Assembly: GCF_002554795.1 (NCBI RefSeq)
Contig: NZ_PDEQ01000001.1
Coordinates: 496,001 to 560,000, forward strand
Origin: Longibacter salinarum
GTDB taxonomy: Bacteria; Bacteroidota; Rhodothermia; Rhodothermales; Salinibacteraceae
Direction: 5' to 3'
DNA length: 64,000 nucleotides
The translations under genes and the position numbers were made by a program. The stretch's first letter is position 1; each line of letters begins with the position of its first letter. Below the pieces are notes generated by a model. It saw only the letters and a list, made by a program, of their open reading frames with translations. It ran no database searches and had not been told where the DNA came from. This document shows, one piece after another, positions 12,187 through 62,508 of this stretch.

Positions 12187-15100
12187 CTACACTTCCAGCG
12201 TGCGCTTCTCTTCGACCACGACGTAGCTTTCAAGCTCGTCGCCGACTTTGATGTCGTTGAAGTTCTCGACAGAGATCCCGCACTCGAAGCCGCTCTTCAC
12301 TTCCTTGACGTCTTCCTTGAAGCGCTTGAGCGATCCGATACGTCCTTCGTAGGTGACCACACCTTCGCGAACGACGCGAATCCTGTGGTTGCGTGAGATC
12401 GTGCCGTCCGTAACATACGAACCGCCGACGGTTCCCACGTTCGGCACCTTGAAGATGTCTCGGACTTCGGCGTGCCCCTTGATCTCTTCGCGCTCTTCGG
12501 GCGAGAGGAGACCTTCGAGAGCCGCATGTACATCCTCGATCGCGTCGTAAATGATCGAGTATGTCCGGATATCGACCTCTTCCTGCTCGGCCGCCTGTCG
12601 GGCGCCGCGTGTCGGTCGAACCTGAAAGCCGAGAATAACGGCATCGGAGGCACGTGCAAGCATGACGTCGGACTCCGTAATGGCACCCACACCGCTGTGG
12701 ATGATGCGGACAGCCACTTCGTCGGTCTTCAGCTTGAGGAGCGCGTCCGATAGGGCCTCTACCGAGCCACCCACGTCCGCTTTGACGATGAGGTTGAGTT
12801 CGTGGAACTCGCCCTCCGCCATGCGACGGGAGATCTGGTCGAGCGAAACCTGACTCTTGCGGCGCAGCTCCTGCTCCCGGTGAATGCGCTGACGCTCATT
12901 CGCGATCTCACGCGCTTCGGACTCGTCTTCGAGAGCCACAAACTGGTCACCCACTTCGGGGGACCCGTCACAACCGAGAACCAAGACCGGAGTTGAAGGT
13001 CCGGCTTCGCTAACACGGTTGTCGCGCTCATCGAACATGGCACGAACCGATCCGCTGTAGATACCCGCGACAAACGGGTCACCAACTTCAAGTGTACCGC
13101 GCTGAACCAGCACCGTGATCACGTTTCCTCGCCCTTTCTCCAGGCGACTTTCGATGATGACACCCGACGCATCGCGGTCCGGGTTCGCCGTCACCTCCAT
13201 GATCTCCGACTGCAGGATAATCTTGTCCAGCAGGTCGTCAATGCCTTCGCCGGTTTCAGCGGAGACTTTCGCAACCTGAACCGTACCGCCGTACTCCTCA
13301 ACAAGGACGTTGTGCTCAGCAAGCTCCGCCATGACCTTCTGCGGATCCGCTTCGCGCTTATCCATCTTGTTGATAGCGACCACGATGGGTACATCCGCGG
13401 CCTGGGCGTGGTTGATGGCCTCGATCGTCTGCGGCATCACCGAGTCGTCGGCAGCCACAACGAGAACCACAATGTCCGTGGCCTTCGCACCACGGGCACG
13501 CATGGCGGTAAACGCCTCGTGACCCGGGGTATCGAGGAAGGTAATCGCCTCGTCTTCGTGATCGGGCAGTCGCACGCGGTGAGCACCAATATGCTGCGTG
13601 ATGCCACCTTCCTCGCCTGCAACGACGTTCGCGCTACGAATATAATCAAGAAGCGACGTCTTACCGTGATCGACGTGACCCATGACGGTCACGACCGGTG
13701 CACGTGGCTCGAGGTCTTCCGGATCATCATCCTCAATGGCGATGGCCTGGTCACCGAACTCATCGATGAACTCGACCTCCAGCTCGTACTCGGCCGCGAC
13801 GAACTCAATCGTCTCACGGTCGAGACGCTGGTTGATTGACACCATCATACCGGCATCGAAAAGCGTCGAGATCACATCACCGACAGGCTCACCCATCAGG
13901 TTTGCGAGCTCACCCGTCGTTACAAACTCGGTCAGGCGCAGAATGCCTTCCTGCTCCTTCTTCCGGCGACGACGCTCTTCCCGCTCTTCTTCGTGACGCT
14001 GACGACGGCGGCGACGGCGGCGCTGGCGGGCACGGCTGGCGCCCTGCTCCAACTCCTGCAGCGTCTCCTGAATCGTCTGCTCGACGTCTTCCTCGTCGAC
14101 ACCACGATTGCGGCTGCGCTTCTTCCGCTTCTTCTTTTTCTTCTTCTGACGCTTCTTATTGCGGTCCTTCCGACTCTGCTGTTTCTTCTTCGAGTCGCTG
14201 TCGTCTTTGGACTTCTTCTTCCGCTTCCGCTTGCGCTTACGGCTCTGGATTTGCGTGAGGTCGACTTTGCCGACCACCTGCGTACCAGAGAGACGATAAC
14301 GGTCCGCCTTTAGGGTTTCGGACTTGTTCTCCGCCCCCTCCTTCGCTTCGACGGATTCCACGTCTTCAGCATCGGCATCTGCTATTTCCGCACGAGCCTC
14401 CGCCGCCGTATCGGTCGTTGGAGCCGCGTTCGGGTCAATCTCATCTTCTTCAGAGGCCGTTGCATCCGCGTCATCGCTCTCTGCAGACGCTTCTGCTTCT
14501 TCGGCTTCGGCTTCAGCGGCTTCAGCGGAAACGTCCTCGCTGGCTTCGGCCTGTCCGTCAGTATCGTCAGTCGCTGCCTCCGCCTCGACTTCTACCTCAG
14601 CCTCAACTTCTGCCTCAGCCTCGGGGTCATCTACCGATTCGTCCGCCTCGGCCTCGGCCGTTGCCTCCGGCTCAGCGGCTTCGACATCTGCAGTGGCTTC
14701 CGCCTCTGCATCCGACTCATCGACAGCATCCACGTCCGCTTCCGCTTCGACCGGCTGCTCCTCCGGGGCTTCAGCTTCCGCGACCGGTTCGTCCTCAGCT
14801 TCCGCGACCGGCTCGGCTTTCGCCTCTTCTTGCGGTTCTTTCGTCGCCTCCGCTTCAGGTTCGGATGCCGCATCAGCCGCGGCCGGTTCCTCTTCGGGCT
14901 GCGCGTCCACGGCTTCGTCGGCCGTCTCGGCGAGCGCCTCAGATTCAACATCTTCCTCAGCAGCAGGTGCTTCGTCTACTTCCTCCGCCGCACTCGCCTC
15001 CGCCGTCGTATCGGCCTCAGCTTCCGCTTCGGGCTCAGAAGACGCCTCGGACTCAGCAGCCGCCTCGGCAACTACTTCCTCTTCGGCCTCCTCGGACGCC

Positions 15101-15423
15101 TCAGCAACATCCGTTGCTTCGTCCGATTCGTCGCCATCGAGCGTAGCCACCTCGTCGCGCGCCACCTCGTCTTCGTCCGACGCTTTGTCCTCTCGGAGCT
15201 CACGCACACGTTCGGCGGCCTCGGCGTCATCGGCATATTCCTGCCTCAGCACAAGGTACGCCTCTTCGTCGACGATAGACGCATTGAACCCATTCCCCGA
15301 CAGCGCGTCGCTGAACCCCTCTTCCTCGAGGAACTCGACCACGCGATCGGTCGAGACGTTCAGCTCTCGCGCTACCTTGAATAGCTTCTTCTTCTTAAAC
15401 TTTTTCTGTTCAGTCGTCGCCAT
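12187..15423 (-). CDS. infB: Translation initiation factor IF-2
   Basis: IF-2 is the GTPase that brings initiator tRNA to the 30S subunit and promotes subunit joining. At 1078 residues it is long. A small N-terminal helical domain ([20 protein letters not shown]) is followed by about 290 residues almost wholly of Ala, Glu, Asp and Ser, then a Lys/Arg block at about residues 390-480, an IF2-N domain ([18 protein letters not shown]), and the G domain from about 575: [30 protein letters not shown] and AINKMDK. Domains II, III and C2 follow with normal length. The acidic-then-basic linker is extreme and fits a halophilic lineage. It lies between nusA and rbfA. Confidence 0.98.
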
Positions 15424-15494
15424 GTAGTCGTTTTCTGTTGCTCAACAAGCCTGCGGGACGCAATGGGAGCGATCCCAGGTCGGTCGGCGCGGGC

Positions 15495-17375
15495 TTACTC
15501 CTTTGCTTCAGGCTCTTCTTCGACAGCACCCGCAACGGTTTCGTCCGGGGTGTCAGTCAAAGAATCCTCCTCCGCATCCATCTTCGGTGCGGCTCCCGCT
15601 TCTTCTGCTTCGTCGTCGGATACTTCGTCGTCGGCTAGATCGGGGGATTGGGGGTCTTTTGAGTCAGTAGGGTCGATCTCGTCTGTTGGTGGTACCGATT
15701 CGTCGCTGAGGGTTTCCGGATCGGGGCCTGGCGCAGTGGCCGTAGGCTCCGGCTCATCCGTTTCCTCTGCAATCGCTTCCTCCGAGACGGCGTCCGCCTC
15801 GGGGGACTCGGCACTCATTTCTGTTCGTTCTTCTGGGACGGCGGCGTCCTCCGCTGCTTCGGGCCCGTCCGGGCCGAAGTCAGCAACGGGGCCACCGACG
15901 TCTTCTGCCGGGGCATCCTCCTCCGTCGGCATGTCTGCTGCAAGTTCTTCTGCTGCGAAGTCCTCTGGGGGGCGATCGGCTGGGCCACCGGACGACTCTT
16001 CTGCCGCGGACTCCGGTGCGTCAACCAGGTCTTCCTCGCTGCGCGGCTCTCGCTCGTCCGATCCGATATCCTCGTCCTCGAGGCTCTCGATCGTGAAATC
16101 GCCACGCTCGATCGTCTCGACAATGCCCGGCCCTTTCTCGAACTCGGCGCTAATGATGTCGAGAACGCGCTGGGCCGTATCACGGTCCAGATCCGCACGG
16201 CGCCCGAGGGCATCAGCGGAAAGCTCAAGCACCGCTTTTCCGGTGTCGCAGCCAATATGTTTAAGCTTCTCGATCGTCTCTTGTTCGAGCTCGTCGCCGA
16301 ACTCTTCGATGTCGATGTCCTCCTCATCGGAGGGGATTTCGCGGTAGACATCGATTTCGTAACCGGTGAGCTGAGACGCCAGCTTGATGTTCACTCCGCG
16401 ACGTCCAATGGCCTGGCTGACCTCGTCAGCCGCGACCTCAACTCGAGCACGAGGAGGATCAGCATCGTCGTTCAGCTTCACGCTGACCGGATTCGCCGGC
16501 GAGAGCGCCCGTGCCACCATCTGGCTCGGATTCTCCGACCACTCCATGACGTCGATATTCTCGTTGGACAGCTCCCGCACCACAGCGTGGATCCGGACGC
16601 CCTTGACGCCAACGCAGGCACCGACGGGGTCTACACGCTCATCGTGGCTTACGACAGCCACTTTGGCGCGGTCGCCAGGGATGCGAGCAATCTTTTTAAT
16701 CTCGACAATACCGTCGTAAACTTCTGGCACCTCGATCTCGAAGAGGCGCTCCATGAACACCGGTGAGGTTCGGCTTACGACAACCTGCGGGTCGGAGCCC
16801 GCGTCACGACGCACCTCTTTCACGACCGTACGAAGCATATTCCCCTTGCGATAGTGATCGCCGGGGATCTGCTCGTTGCGCGGAAGAACGACTTCCACAC
16901 CGTCGTGCATGAGGAGCGCCTCGTGGCGGCGAACCTGGTAAATCTCGCCGACGATAATTTCGCCGATGAGATCGGAGTACTCGTCGTAAATCTTCTCCTT
17001 CTCAATGTCGCGAATGCGCTGCCGGAACGTCTGCCGGGCCGTTAGCACGGCGCGACGCCCGAAATCACTAATATCAAGCTCGCTTGCAACCTCGTCGCCC
17101 TCCTCAAAGTCCTCATCAAGTTGCTTCGCATGCCGCTCCTCGATTTGCGTAACGGGATCGACGAGGTTATAGTCCTCCACGATTTCCTGGATGTGGAGGA
17201 TCTGGATGTCGCCCTGATTCGGGTTAAAGATGATCTCAAACGCCTCATCGGACCCATACCGCTTATCAATCATCGCACGAATCACGTCTTCGACGATGAT
17301 CTGGAGGGTTTCGCGGTCGATGTCCTTCGCACGGGCAATTTCCCCGAACGAAGAAACGAGGTCTGCACTTCGCAT
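15495..17375 (-). CDS. nusA: Transcription termination/antitermination factor NusA
   Basis: NusA binds RNA polymerase and modulates pausing, termination and antitermination. The N-terminal domain (about 1-130) ends in RRAVLTARQTFRQRIRDIEK. An S1 domain follows (IIVGEIYQV...VEVVLPRNEQIPGD), then two KH domains containing DPVGACVGVKGVRI and AIGRRGVNIKLASQLTGYEI. Beyond about residue 345 is a helical region with helix-hairpin-helix character, then an acidic, Pro- and Ser-rich tail of about 190 residues that is not part of the usual family and matches the acidic extensions of IF-2, ScpB and S1. It is preceded by rimP and followed by infB. Confidence 0.97.
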   Translation of the reverse strand: MRSADLVSSFGEIARAKDIDRETLQIIVEDVIRAMIDKRYGSDEAFEIIFNPNQGDIQILHIQEIVEDYNLVDPVTQIEERHAKQLDEDFEEGDEVASELDISDFGRRAVLTARQTFRQRIRDIEKEKIYDEYSDLIGEIIVGEIYQVRRHEALLMHDGVEVVLPRNEQIPGDHYRKGNMLRTVVKEVRRDAGSDPQVVVSRTSPVFMERLFEIEVPEVYDGIVEIKKIARIPGDRAKVAVVSHDERVDPVGACVGVKGVRIHAVVRELSNENIDVMEWSENPSQMVARALSPANPVSVKLNDDADPPRARVEVAADEVSQAIGRRGVNIKLASQLTGYEIDVYREIPSDEEDIDIEEFGDELEQETIEKLKHIGCDTGKAVLELSADALGRRADLDRDTAQRVLDIISAEFEKGPGIVETIERGDFTIESLEDEDIGSDEREPRSEEDLVDAPESAAEESSGGPADRPPEDFAAEELAADMPTEEDAPAEDVGGPVADFGPDGPEAAEDAAVPEERTEMSAESPEADAVSEEAIAEETDEPEPTATAPGPDPETLSDESVPPTDEIDPTDSKDPQSPDLADDEVSDDEAEEAGAAPKMDAEEDSLTDTPDETVAGAVEEEPEAKE

Positions 17376-19898: not shown

Positions 19899-20051
19899 GT
19901 TCTAAACGCGAAGTGCGGAAATCGAAATTCGAAGTGATTGACTCGCTGTGTGTTAAAGCGTTGTACGTTGACACGTTGCCGTGCAGGCCGCATTGACGCA
20001 GGTAGTCACCACCTCGGAATGCTTCCCACATCCACACTTCAACACATTCAC

Positions 20052-20249
20052 AACCTGTTTGGCGGATGAATCTCGAAACGCAAGGACAGTTGCCCATGCC
20101 GATGATAAGGCCTGACGGTGACCTTCTCGCGATTACACAGTAGACACGGTGCGTGAGATCAACCGACCCCAGTAATGCGTGCATAGCGAGGACCGACCAG
20201 CGGGAGGTCCGTACCCTTGGATCGCCGAAGGCTGTCCGCCAAACAGGTT
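20052..20249. repeat. 198-bp element with inverted-repeat ends, copy 1
   Basis: The ends are inverted repeats: AACCTGTTTGGCGGATG on the left and GTCCGCCAAACAGGTT on the right. A second copy of exactly the same length lies at 61296-61493 in the opposite orientation. The last ~65 bases are the best conserved (GCGAGGACCGA, GAGGTCCG, ATCGCCGAAGGCTGTCC), and the interior aligns with only small gaps. Similarity continues a few bases beyond the ends (TTCA before, CTCA after). There is no open frame of note. It looks like a miniature, non-autonomous transposon or other dispersed intergenic element. It lies between the nadB start and the prfB stop. Confidence 0.75.
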
Positions 20250-20270
20250 CTCACACCTTCACAATGCCGT

Positions 20271-27932: not shown

Positions 27933-28004
27933 GGCCTGTTTGATGGACAACTCTCGGCCCCTCCTTCCCTCGTATCAGCCAACAACCTATCCGACAAACA
28001 GGTT
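27933..28004. repeat. Short relative of the 198-bp element
   Basis: GGCCTGTTTGATGGACA on the left and TCCGACAAACAGGTT on the right are inverted and resemble the ends of the 198-bp elements, but only 72 bases separate the outer edges. The bases after the right end (TTCAAACCTTCA) resemble the flank after copy 1 (CTCACACCTTCA). It could be an internally deleted, decayed copy. The similarity is partial. Confidence 0.4.
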
Positions 28005-28109
28005 TTCAAACCTTCATGCAGGCTGTCTTTGAACGAGTTGCTTTCTGACGCCACGTGCCTCATTATTACGATCGCCTAGTCGTTTAACCTCTGCACCTCC
28101 CTGATCATC

Positions 28110-32173: not shown

Positions 32174-34765
32174 TTAGCTGTTCGACTGCTCGTCGAATTC
32201 AGCCAGTGCGTCCTCAATTTCCTCGGCGTAGGCGTCACCGATGCCGTTGATTTCCGTGAAGTCATCCGCATACTCGCGGAGATCGGAAATCGACATTACG
32301 CCTGCATTCTCAAGACGACCCACCTGGGGGAAGTCTTCCGGGAAACCGGATGTCTCGTCAAAGCCAGCCGATTCTTCGGCAGCTTCTTCGCCTGCCTCTT
32401 CGGCTTCGGCCACGTCGAGGGCATCCTCTTCCTCTGCGGCTGGCTCTTCCGTTTCTTCCTCTGCAGCTTCTTCGACATCTGCTGCTTCGGCTTCCACTTC
32501 AGGTGCCTCGGCTTCTTCAACGCCGCGACGCTCTGCTTCCTGCATCTGCGCTTTGAGGTCGGCAAGGCCGGAAAGCTCTCCGAGCGTCGTCGGTCCGGAC
32601 GTAGATTCGTCTTCGCCCTTGTCCTGATACTGCTGGACGCTGCGGCGCTCTTCCTGCTTCTTCTTGCGCTCCTCGCGACGTTCGGCTTCGCGCTCCTGGT
32701 GCGCCTCCTGGCGCTCCTTGGCGGTCTCGCTGAGGACAATGTCCTTGCGCGACTTGTCGAAGCGAATCACTCGCAGTTCGAGCTCGTCGCCCTTCGCGTA
32801 GTGGCTCTGGAAGTTGCGCGGGCCGTTCTTTAGCTCGCTGCCCGGAACGAAGGCTTCCACGTCGAGCGGAAGCTCCACCACGAGTCCTTTGTCCTCCACA
32901 CGGACGACTTCGGCCTCGGTGTCGTTGCCTTCGCTGTAGGCTTCGGCGAACTGATCCCACGGGTTCGTCTTGACCTGCTTGTGGCCAAGCGAGATCCGAC
33001 GACGCTCCTCGTCAATGTTGAGGATGACGACATCGAGATCCTGCCCCTTGTTGATCATGTCACCAGGGTGACGGACCTTCTTCGTCCACGACAGATCCGA
33101 GATGTGGACGAGGCCATCGATTCCAGGCTCGATCTCAACGAAGACACCGAAGTTGGTGATGTTACGCACCGTTCCAGTGAGGACCGTGCCGGCCGGGTAG
33201 CGATCAGAGATGCCATCCCATGGATCCGGCTGGAGCTGCTTCATACCGAGGGAGATCTTCTTCTCCTCCTCGTCGATATTCAGGATCTTGACGTCCACGA
33301 GCTGTCCGAGCGAAACCATCTGGCTCGGGTGCTTGATGTGGCGCGTCCAGCTCATCTCACTGATGTGAACGAGGCCCTCGATCCCCTTCTCCAGCTCCAC
33401 AAAGGCGCCGTAGTTGGTGATCGAGACAACCTTTCCTTCGACGGTTTCTCCTTCGTCGTACTTCTCGCCGATGTTGTCCCACGGGTGCGGCTGGAGCTGC
33501 TTGAGACCAAGCGAAATACGCTGGCGCTCTTCTTCGTAATCCAGGACCACAACCTCAATTTCGTCGTCGAGCTCGACGATCTCACTCGGGTGCGAGACGC
33601 GGCCCCACGAGAGGTCGGTGATGTGCAGGAGGCCGTCCACGCCGCCGAGGTCGATGAAGACACCGAAGTCGACGATGTTTTTGACGGTACCGCGAAGCAC
33701 CTGCCCAACCTCGAGCTGCTCGAGAATCTGCTGGCGCTGCTCCTCCAGCTCTTCTTCGATGAGCTCGCGGTGCGAGACGACAATGTTTTCGTTCGACGGA
33801 TTGAGCTTAACAATCTTAAACTCCATCCGCTTGTCCAGGTACGCGTCGAAGTCGCGGACCGGCCGCGCGTCGATCTGCGAACCCGGGAGGAACGCTTCGA
33901 GATCGTCGAAGAGTTCCACGATCATACCACCTTTGATGCGGCGGACGATCGTGCCCTCGATAATCTCTTCGTTCTCGTAAATCTCTTCGATCCGCTGCCA
34001 GCGGCGAACCTTGTCGGCCTTGGCCTTCGACAGCACAAGTTGACCGTCGCGATCTTCTTTGCGCTCGAGGTACACCTCAACGGTGTCGCCCGGCTTGAGC
34101 TCGCGCGAGAACTCATCGGCACTAATGATGCCGTCGCTCTTGTATCCGATGTCAATCAGAACATCGTCGTCGGACACTTTGAGCACGCGACCTTCAACAA
34201 TGTCCTCTTCACGGACATCGATCGAGGTCTGGTCAATGAACTGACGGAACTGGCTATAGACCGGGTCCTCCTCCCGCTCCCGTTCTTCTGCCTCCAGTTC
34301 GTCGAGAGAAATGGTGCGGCCGAACATCTCGCCGGTGAAGCCCTGCGCTTCCTCTGTGCGCTCAAGGTCTTCCAGCGAAACGGTCTGACCCGGCTCTGCC
34401 GTGTCGACAAAGTCGATATCAGCATCGTCTCCCGAAGGAATTGCAAAGTCCTGTGCAGCGGCTTCCACTGCCTCCTCCAGGATACGATGGACGGGGCCGA
34501 CGGGCTCGGGCTCCTCTTCCACAGCCTCTACCTCTTCGGCCTCTTCGGCGTCCGCGGCTTCGTCAGCCTCTGCAGCGGGGGCGCCGTCGCCTGCTTCTTC
34601 AGCAGCCGGAGCATCAGCGTCCGTTGCCTCGGCCTCCGCTTCAGCATCCGTTGCTTCGGCAGCAGCGGCATCCTGAGCATCCGTATCCACCTCTGCGGTG
34701 GCTTCGGTTGCCGGAGCGGCTTCCGTCTCTTCAGTTGTTGCGGTTTTCTCTTGGTTTTCTGCCAT
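32174..34765 (-). CDS. rpsA: Ribosomal protein S1 with acidic extensions
   Basis: S1 holds mRNA on the 30S subunit and is needed for leaders without a Shine-Dalgarno sequence. Six S1 repeats can be followed, starting at [79 protein letters not shown] and the more divergent [10 protein letters not shown]. At 863 residues it is about 300 longer than the Escherichia coli protein. The excess is an acidic N-terminal region of roughly 190 residues, an acidic stretch after the sixth repeat, and a final module ([27 protein letters not shown]) that looks like a helix-hairpin-helix. It follows cmk after a long gap, as in the common cmk-rpsA order. Confidence 0.96.
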
Positions 34766-60467: not shown

Positions 60468-61094
60468 TCCGAGAAAAGCAATTAGGTCGAGGACAAAGAG
60501 CCCGGCCCCCTGCATAATCAACGAGCTCCCGTGGCCCCTCAACGCGCGTGCGCTGTCGACCCCTCTGTAGGAAAGCAGAACCAGCGTCGTCCCAACAGAT
60601 GAGTAGGCGACGTTTAGCCCAAGGTTAAAGAGCAGGATGTCGTGGTAAAAGCGTTCGGCTGAGACCGCAGCCTCGTAGCCTCTCGTGGGATCGTCGCCCG
60701 ATACCAACCCGGCTGTAGCAATGCCGATGTTCACGACACCCCAAAGTCCGGACTGTGCTCCGAATCCCCACCACGCCGGGCGTTCAGGTCGACTTGCTCC
60801 GAGAATGAGAGCGAGGCCTCCAAGCGCATTCACGCTGCCCCAGGCCGCTACGCGCCACAGATGGGCGCGCTCTGCAGCCATTCTGTCTTCCACCAGAGTC
60901 TCGACGCGCTCATTCGAATGCGGATAGAGATTGGCAGTATCGTGCGCTACCGGGATCGGCACGGCAGCCACCGACGTCGCAGGTGATTCAAGCTGTTGAG
61001 CGAACGCCTGCGAATACGGCATGGACGAGGCAAGAAACGCCATGACGACGAGAAGACGTGTAATTGAGTGCTGGGACATCGTTTTTCCCATCAT
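60375..61094 (-). CDS. Exported multi-helix membrane protein, unknown function
   Basis: The 239-residue product starts with a signal-like segment (LLVVMAFLASSMPYSQAFAQ; the ATG at 61079 is an alternative start). A hydrophilic stretch with HSNERVETLVEDRMAAERAH follows, then about four membrane segments (AWGSVNALGGLALILGA, WGVVNIGIATAGLV, FNLGLNVAYSSVGTTLVLL, LIMQGAGLFVLDLIAFLG). I recognise the general style of Bacteroidota/Rhodothermota membrane proteins but no named family. Its 3' end overlaps fxsA tail-to-tail by 93 bases. Because its own membrane segments reach into that overlap, the overlap is likely real. Confidence 0.75.
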   Translation of the reverse strand: MMGKTMSQHSITRLLVVMAFLASSMPYSQAFAQQLESPATSVAAVPIPVAHDTANLYPHSNERVETLVEDRMAAERAHLWRVAAWGSVNALGGLALILGASRPERPAWWGFGAQSGLWGVVNIGIATAGLVSGDDPTRGYEAAVSAERFYHDILLFNLGLNVAYSSVGTTLVLLSYRGVDSARALRGHGSSLIMQGAGLFVLDLIAFLGSRTRLTGLLDMAGSLSGRALPTGFAFTLSL

Positions 61095-61295
61095 GGAGAG
61101 AAGACGGCGATTCGACTGAAAGGTATCCCATCGTGGTCCCTAAAACCGCAACGATGGTTTAAAAGCCTGCAGCTCGTCGCGATCGTCTTACACCGTTTCA
61201 ACTTCAAAATATCGGTGTCTCCGACGGTCTCCGTTTAACGGATGCGCCAGCCCCCGACTGTCGTCGGGACAAGCCTCAGCACGAGAACCGTTGAG
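61095..61295. other. Intergenic flank of repeat copy 2
   Basis: No gene is visible. The region carries the promoter for the membrane-protein gene on the minus strand. Near 61270-61295 the sequence (GAGAACCGTTGAGAACCGG) is a small direct repeat bordering the 198-bp element. Confidence 0.35.
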
Positions 61296-61493
61296 AACCG
61301 GTTTGGCGGACAGCCTTCGGCGATTCAAAGATCCGGACCTCTCCACGATCGGTCCTCGCGCCGCTTGCAATACACGGATTGGTTGCACTCGCGCACCGCG
61401 TCTAAGTCGTTATCGCGGAAGGAACGGCTCAGGTCTGCGAATAGACATGAACGGCCGTTCTTACGTTTTCACGACCCATCCGCCAAACAGGTT
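61296..61493. repeat. 198-bp element with inverted-repeat ends, copy 2
   Basis: It runs from AACCGGTTTGGCGGACAG to CATCCGCCAAACAGGTT and has the same length as copy 1 (20052-20249), to whose reverse complement it aligns along its length with scattered differences and one or two single-base gaps. The best-conserved block is next to the GGACAGCC end. The element lies in a non-coding gap. Equal length together with sequence divergence suggests an old insertion or a constrained structure. Confidence 0.75.
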
Positions 61494-61698
61494 GTGAACC
61501 TATAACGTAGCAACGTTTTTCTGCCCAGATCAAGGCAGTTGAGTCGGCATGGCCAGGTCCCTCCGATATTGTCATACCGAAAACGTATTACGACCTGGAT
61601 GGCGATTCACATCAATACAGAAACGTCCCGCTCTCTCGTTGAGACCGGGGCGTTCGTTTTCTCCCGCAACCATATGCATTTCCGGCGCTACGGTCGCG
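61494..61698. other. Gap after the TerB-like gene, with possible weak terminator
   Basis: No gene is seen. Around 61620-61655 a GC-rich imperfect hairpin (ACGTCCCGCTCTC with GAGACCGGGGCGTT) is followed by TTTT on the plus strand and T-rich sequence on the minus strand; it may end the TerB-like gene. Confidence 0.35.
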
Positions 61699-62508
61699 TC
61701 AGCGGTGCCGACCGTTGAGGCGGACGTTCACGTCCCAGGCGCGGGCGATGGACGTGATAAGCTTGCGCTCGCTGTCCGATAGATTGCCGTCCGCGCGGGC
61801 GACGCAGTGAAGGTCGTCGAGGACAGCCAAACGCTGAACGTCCGGAAGCGCCTTCTTCAGTGTTGTCATGGAATCTCGAATGAGCGCTTCCTGCTCCCCT
61901 TCGGCATACACTTGCAGCGACGACCGCACGATCTCGCGTGCCTCTTCGGGACCGAGGTCAGGCTGCCATTCCTGCAGTCGTTCGAGGATGACGGTGATTT
62001 CACCTTCGGCTAATTCGTTGTTGGCGACGTGGGCCACCACAAGAAACAGGAAGGCTAGTTCGTGAATCAGGCCCCAGTCCTCTCCCCGGGGCTGGACGGC
62101 CGCGTCCGATTCATCCATCAACTCGCGCTCCAGGCGACGGAGCGACCACGCATCAGCAACACGCGAGATCAGTCCCTGCTCTCGTTCGAGCAGAACGCCG
62201 TCGGCCTCCGCGATACGAATTACATCCGTGAGGGCCCGGCGGCGCTCATCTGGACCGAGAGATCCTCCAAGCGTGTCGATCGCACGCGTGAGCTCCGAAT
62301 TGGCATCCCCTTCGATGAATGCGGTCGCTGCCTCCATAACGATTTCTTGGACGTGCGTGTCTTCCGACACAACCGCCCAGTCTTTGAGCGCGTCCGTAAT
62401 TGCCGCAACCTCGCCGTCGGAGAGTTCGTGATCCGTTCCGTACGCGAGTGCGACGTACAGCAGCGCCAGATCGTGCGTTTTCGTCCAGCCGTCGTTCAAG
62501 TCAACCAT
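61699..62508 (-). CDS. Double TerB-like helical protein
   Basis: I choose the ATG at 62508 (MVDLNDGWTKTHDLALLYV), which starts the similarity; the 51 codons upstream look non-coding. The 269-residue product contains two TerB-like units: about 8-110 with YVALAYGTDHELSDGEVAAI and IRIAEADGVLLEREQ, and about 140-260 with FLVVAHVANNELAEGEITVI and DLHCVARADGNLSDSERKLI. The acidic A-x-AD-G-x-L/S-x-E turn bears the metal-coordinating residues in TerB of tellurite resistance. Function is unknown; TerB-like proteins occur in stress-response and defence contexts. No other ter gene is nearby. Confidence 0.8.
   Translation of the reverse strand: MVDLNDGWTKTHDLALLYVALAYGTDHELSDGEVAAITDALKDWAVVSEDTHVQEIVMEAATAFIEGDANSELTRAIDTLGGSLGPDERRRALTDVIRIAEADGVLLEREQGLISRVADAWSLRRLERELMDESDAAVQPRGEDWGLIHELAFLFLVVAHVANNELAEGEITVILERLQEWQPDLGPEEAREIVRSSLQVYAEGEQEALIRDSMTTLKKALPDVQRLAVLDDLHCVARADGNLSDSERKLITSIARAWDVNVRLNGRHR

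Follow-up and report, generated by a model that had tools for sequence, protein, structure and literature searches.

ISLrh is a transposase-encoding insertion sequence of the IS5 family, IS1031 subgroup, that is 857 bp long, has the inverted repeat GAACCTGTCTAGTATCT, and produces TNA target duplications (PMC12016507). In Methanosarcina acetivorans, a MITE tied to ISMma12 is 140 bp long and occurs in 24 copies, with 16-bp inverted repeats and 3-bp direct repeats (PMC3852290). Two further reports describe how insertion sequences behave within genomes: in Wolbachia, recombination between terminal inverted repeats is reported to invert the element (PMC3004938), and other insertion sequences are reported to use REP repeats as targets (PMC1525189). 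Here, we describe a repeat family in Longibacter salinarum that we consider, with a probability of about 0.93 judged from its sequence features, to be a MITE family. Its members are short and gene-less, they have terminal inverted repeats and TNA duplications, and they are dispersed copies for which paralogous empty sites can be found.

An earlier note on the window, the 64,000-nt stretch of DNA that was analyzed, had claimed a pair of 198-bp copies in opposite orientation that share a conserved block near one end and lie in gaps, and this description proved accurate. The copies occupy positions 20052-20249 (plus strand) and 61296-61493 (minus strand), each is 198 bp long, and their ends are alike. 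Their pairwise identity is 72%, and a BLAST search of the genome with copy 1 recovered copy 2 at E = 2.7e-24; therefore, the likeness between them is not due to chance. The conserved block ATCGCCGAAGGCTGTCC is found at one end in both. Copy 1 lies in a 372-bp gap between a nadB-like open reading frame (start 19898) and a prfB-like open reading frame (end 20271), and copy 2 lies in the gap 61095-61698, between open reading frames ending at 61094 and beginning at 61699.

The TNA target duplication begins one base beyond each 198-bp end, which makes the mobile unit 200 nt long rather than 198. Counted in this way, including the single base between inverted repeat and target duplication, copy 1 spans 20051-20250 on the plus strand. 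Its left terminal inverted repeat (CAACCTGTTTGGCGGA) occupies 20051-20066 and its right terminal inverted repeat, which reads GAACCTGTTTGGCGGA on the minus strand, occupies 20235-20250; sequence and family statistics together place a TCA target duplication at 20048-20050 and 20251-20253. Copy 2 spans 61295-61494 (200 nt, minus strand in the family orientation), with TGA target duplications on the low side at 61292-61294 and on the high side at 61495-61497. The window also contains a 73-nt deletion derivative at about 27933-28005, which has degraded ends (GGCCTGTTTGATGGA...TATCCGACAAACAGGTT) and TCA on both sides. Separately, in reverse-strand open reading frames at 14100-15800 and 32300-34700 of the window, TTC/TCG/GCC-type codons recur in runs of low complexity; these runs probably encode acidic stretches rich in Glu and Ala, such as a halophile would be expected to have.

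We estimated the size of the family in several ways. With E values of up to 0.01 accepted, a sequence-only covariance model built from 33 copies gave 134 matches in the 4.4-Mb genome, and BLAST with either window copy gave at least 40 genome candidates, all of them real matches. The inverted-repeat core CCGCCAAACAGGTT, with two or fewer mismatches allowed, occurs at 291 genome sites, compared to 28 for a reversed control pattern. We also examined base by base a 1.46-Mb sample consisting of contig ends and large parts of contigs C4 and C7 to C12, with the six small contigs C17 to C22, of 483 to 1,197 bp, left out; it contained 40 short end pairs, or approximately 27 per Mb, which is consistent with the genome-wide count. 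On average, two family members are 69% identical (median of 81% to the nearest neighbor, maximum of 98%), and lineages within the family are about 62 to 98% identical.

For 92 copies, both ends could be tabulated. Most of these are 197 to 201 nt long, with 198 nt (28 copies), 199 nt (21 copies), and 197 nt (11 copies) the most frequent lengths, and a tail reaching from 102 to 253 nt. The equal length claimed for the window pair is thus a general tendency of the family, but only 28 of the 92 copies measure exactly 198 nt. Seven head-to-tail copies form a tandem array at C5:265016-266396 (L190:2017-3396) with a period of 197 bp and 94% matching, in which every junction has the fused ends CAGGTTCTGTTTGG. 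A 303-bp relative at C5:408863-409165 (L334:17514-17816) has ends of the same type and is flanked by TCA duplications, but its interior is mostly different; a truncated copy lies near L379:8178.

The terminal inverted repeats extend over 15 to 16 bp at both ends (GAACCTGTTTGGCGGA), and most of their columns are at least 90% conserved in 33 copies. Outside the 198-bp ends there is one variable base, followed by TNA. When 3-bp flanks were compared at this one-base offset, left and right agreed in 47 of the 92 copies, compared to a mean of 20.3 and a maximum of 34 in 1,000 shuffles; none of the other offsets and widths tested on the 92 copies stood out. TNA is present on both sides of 59 copies, with an identical middle base in 46 of them, and the window copies fit this pattern (TCA/TCA for copy 1, TGA/TGA for copy 2). 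For the 44 insertions that lie outside host repeats, joining the two flanks gives an apparent symmetric target preference, roughly TnnaACGTTNAACGTtnnA. Of the 89 copies that could be placed relative to genes with a home-made codon model, 88 are intergenic, although the window itself is approximately 77% coding. The earlier note had offered a precise mobile unit as one explanation of the pair and had named many copies in gaps, flanked by short target duplications, as the mark of a MITE; the 134 matches, their intergenic placement, and the TNA duplications bear this out. Small, palindromic-ended, intergenic, multi-copy elements are also what a REP/RAYT-type or other single-strand (IS200/IS605-like) repeat would look like. 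To our knowledge, however, such elements make no target duplication, and with the 3-bp TNA duplication demonstrated for the MITE family, we give this alternative practically no weight. An integron attC site was likewise considered and was dropped because target duplications are shown.

The earlier note had also raised selection on structure, in which case the copies would be structured RNAs or cis-regulatory elements whose fold is conserved. Such an element would be in keeping with the nearly uniform length, with the conservation of a short GGACC...GGTCC hairpin, and with an RNAalifold result for 83 copies (-3.3 kcal/mol, compared to about 0 for shuffled columns). However, an Rfam scan gave no match, and the stem covariation that the note had suggested as a sign of an RNA is almost absent in both the 33-copy and the 83-copy sets; for 33 copies, the RNAalifold covariation term was +0.25, with one covarying pair among 22. 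Pairing between the terminal repeats was kept in 1106 of 1239 cells (83 copies), no better than the mean of 1101.6 obtained when right halves were shuffled among copies, and flanking genes have no preferred orientation (24 ++, 22 --, 23 -+, and 17 +-). We therefore regard an RNA or regulatory element as very improbable. Conservation of the GGACC/GGTCC hairpin is mainly at the sequence level, with six double changes, and the hairpin may be a protein site. A coding function was rejected as well: at most 27 of 83 copies share any one open reading frame.

Several MITE copies are flanked by members of a second repeat superfamily, with types A, B, and C of about 160 to 202 bp. These host repeats have their own imperfect inverted ends (TAnACnnTTTC...AATRTCGG), and some copies have a TAA or TTA duplication when examined by eye; given these ends and duplications, the host repeats themselves appear to be a further MITE superfamily. 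The host repeat A that holds copy 2 spans 61187-61591 in the window, measures approximately 202 bp without the insert, and has TAA flanks. Most of the 15 host-repeat loci in the 1.46-Mb sample lack the 198-bp element, and an uninterrupted host A of 202 bp is present at C13:23621-23822 (L322:3621-3822). The filled host A in the window matches this empty paralogue up to GTTCA and resumes from TTCTCG; the intervening sequence consists of the element and the duplicated TNA. Empty host A reads GTTCAAAC, and filled copies read GT-TNA-n[element]n-TNA-AC. From this paralogous empty site, the insertion of copy 2 can be read exactly. Empty copies also exist for B and C, all of these comparisons being paralogous, and in host B the empty and filled copies agree.

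About 18 MITE copies sit at one fixed point within the three host repeat types, in either orientation, and they belong to unrelated lineages. The element at C3:112299, which lies in host A, is 96% identical to host C elements at C1:783709, C2:33861, and C5:199299. It is 77 to 78% identical to the elements of three of its host A neighbors and 68% identical to that of the fourth, and its host A flanks are 86 to 93% identical to those of the same neighbors. Host B holds two element lineages that are 64 to 67% alike, and host C holds two element lineages in opposite orientations. Such nesting at a fixed point suggests that elements either landed there by preference or were exchanged repeatedly by gene conversion. 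According to the second explanation, a single insertion was followed by gene conversion, or by inversion between inverted repeats; the common flanks and ends supply the homology needed, and inversion through terminal inverted repeats is documented for insertion sequences in Wolbachia (PMC3004938). Against it, empty host copies are present alongside filled ones, and the palindromic form of the preferred target would also make it easy for elements to insert independently in either orientation. We give this explanation even odds. More tentatively, the middle region of the host superfamily could be a preferred landing site that unrelated lineages entered repeatedly in both orientations, which would amount to targeted nesting of one MITE in another. 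Because of the nesting, a single genome offers many filled sites together with their empty counterparts, making the target choice of IS1031-type transposition testable.

As for the mobilizer, the most likely type is a transposase of the IS1031 subgroup of IS5. We name this subgroup because the first eight bases of the ends, GAACCTGT, and the TNA duplication both match ISLrh, a single published example (PMC12016507). The repeat class, which the earlier note had left unassigned, now fits MITEs of the IS1031 subgroup within the IS5 family, but the full-length transposase element with the same ends that the note had proposed to look for was not found. No transposase gene with the family ends was present among matches to PF01609, PF13340, and PF13359 (covering the genome and up to 25 family members), none of the end pairs spaced 300 to 4,000 bp apart in the 1.46-Mb sample delimited an autonomous element, and a search through unpaired ends found no autonomous partner. 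The one PF13340+PF01609 element of the genome (L105:864-1808, near 22 kb on C1), an IS5-type transposase, has inverted repeats of the TAGGCAGTGTTTGAAAACTC type, unlike those of the MITE family. These results would also be expected if the MITE had been moved by another DDE family that makes 3-bp duplications; we consider this unlikely, given that a published element of the IS1031 subgroup has both the GAACCTGT start and the TNA duplication. Short-read assemblies often place multi-copy insertion sequences in small contigs. In this assembly, contigs C10 and C12 (L103 and L104) both start within one and the same gene for a DDE_Tnp_1 transposase; these breaks are probably due to an insertion sequence present in several copies.

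The family extends to a genus mate (G001), which carries copies of it. Genomes of the Salinibacter lineage contain MITEs of 79 to 259 bp with the same 15- to 16-bp ends and TNA duplications; their interiors are unrelated to that of the Longibacter family and have internal hairpins of their own. A collection-wide scan for TNAGAACCTGTTTGGCGGA detected these ends in S. altiplanensis and in the MAGs QS_3_64_15, SW_9_63_38, and ERR2683635_bin.17, most of them with a partner end. Among short pairs in Salinibacter altiplanensis and related MAGs, the same TNA occurs on both sides in 10 of 11 (the exception is L259). Outside the Salinibacter lineage, the scan gave lone ends only, at about the number expected by chance, and viral contigs gave three single-end matches. 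In our literature search, we found no description of MITEs in Salinibacter and no paper giving the end sequence. The Longibacter repeats would thus represent a large, apparently undescribed MITE family with an end sequence common to the Salinibacter lineage, and naming it aids the annotation of intergenic DNA and strain typing.

We propose that an IS5-family, IS1031-type transposase acting in trans would bind the GAACCTGTTTGGCGGA ends and move the unit, which would then be joined at a TNA site within a roughly palindromic preferred target, about TnnaACGTTNAACGTtnnA. The near-constant length may reflect successive bursts from different source copies, each preserving length; repeated bursts of this kind would give rise to lineages that differ by 25 to 35% in their interiors and have ends and length in common. 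Selection would have removed insertions that fell in genes.

Compared to known systems, the family shares with ISLrh an inverted repeat that opens with GAACCTGT and a 3-bp TNA duplication, but ISLrh is 857 bp long with a transposase, the Longibacter units are 200 bp long without one, and the remainder of the inverted repeat differs (PMC12016507). Like the ISMma12-tied MITE of M. acetivorans, it consists of many gene-less copies in the same length class, with inverted repeats of 16 bp and duplications of 3 bp; it differs in a copy number that is several times higher, in lineages that are about 62 to 98% identical, and in that no partner was found (PMC3852290). The nesting resembles the targeting of REP repeats by insertion sequences in that a mobile element lands preferentially in another repeat family; in Longibacter, however, both partners appear to be MITEs (PMC1525189).
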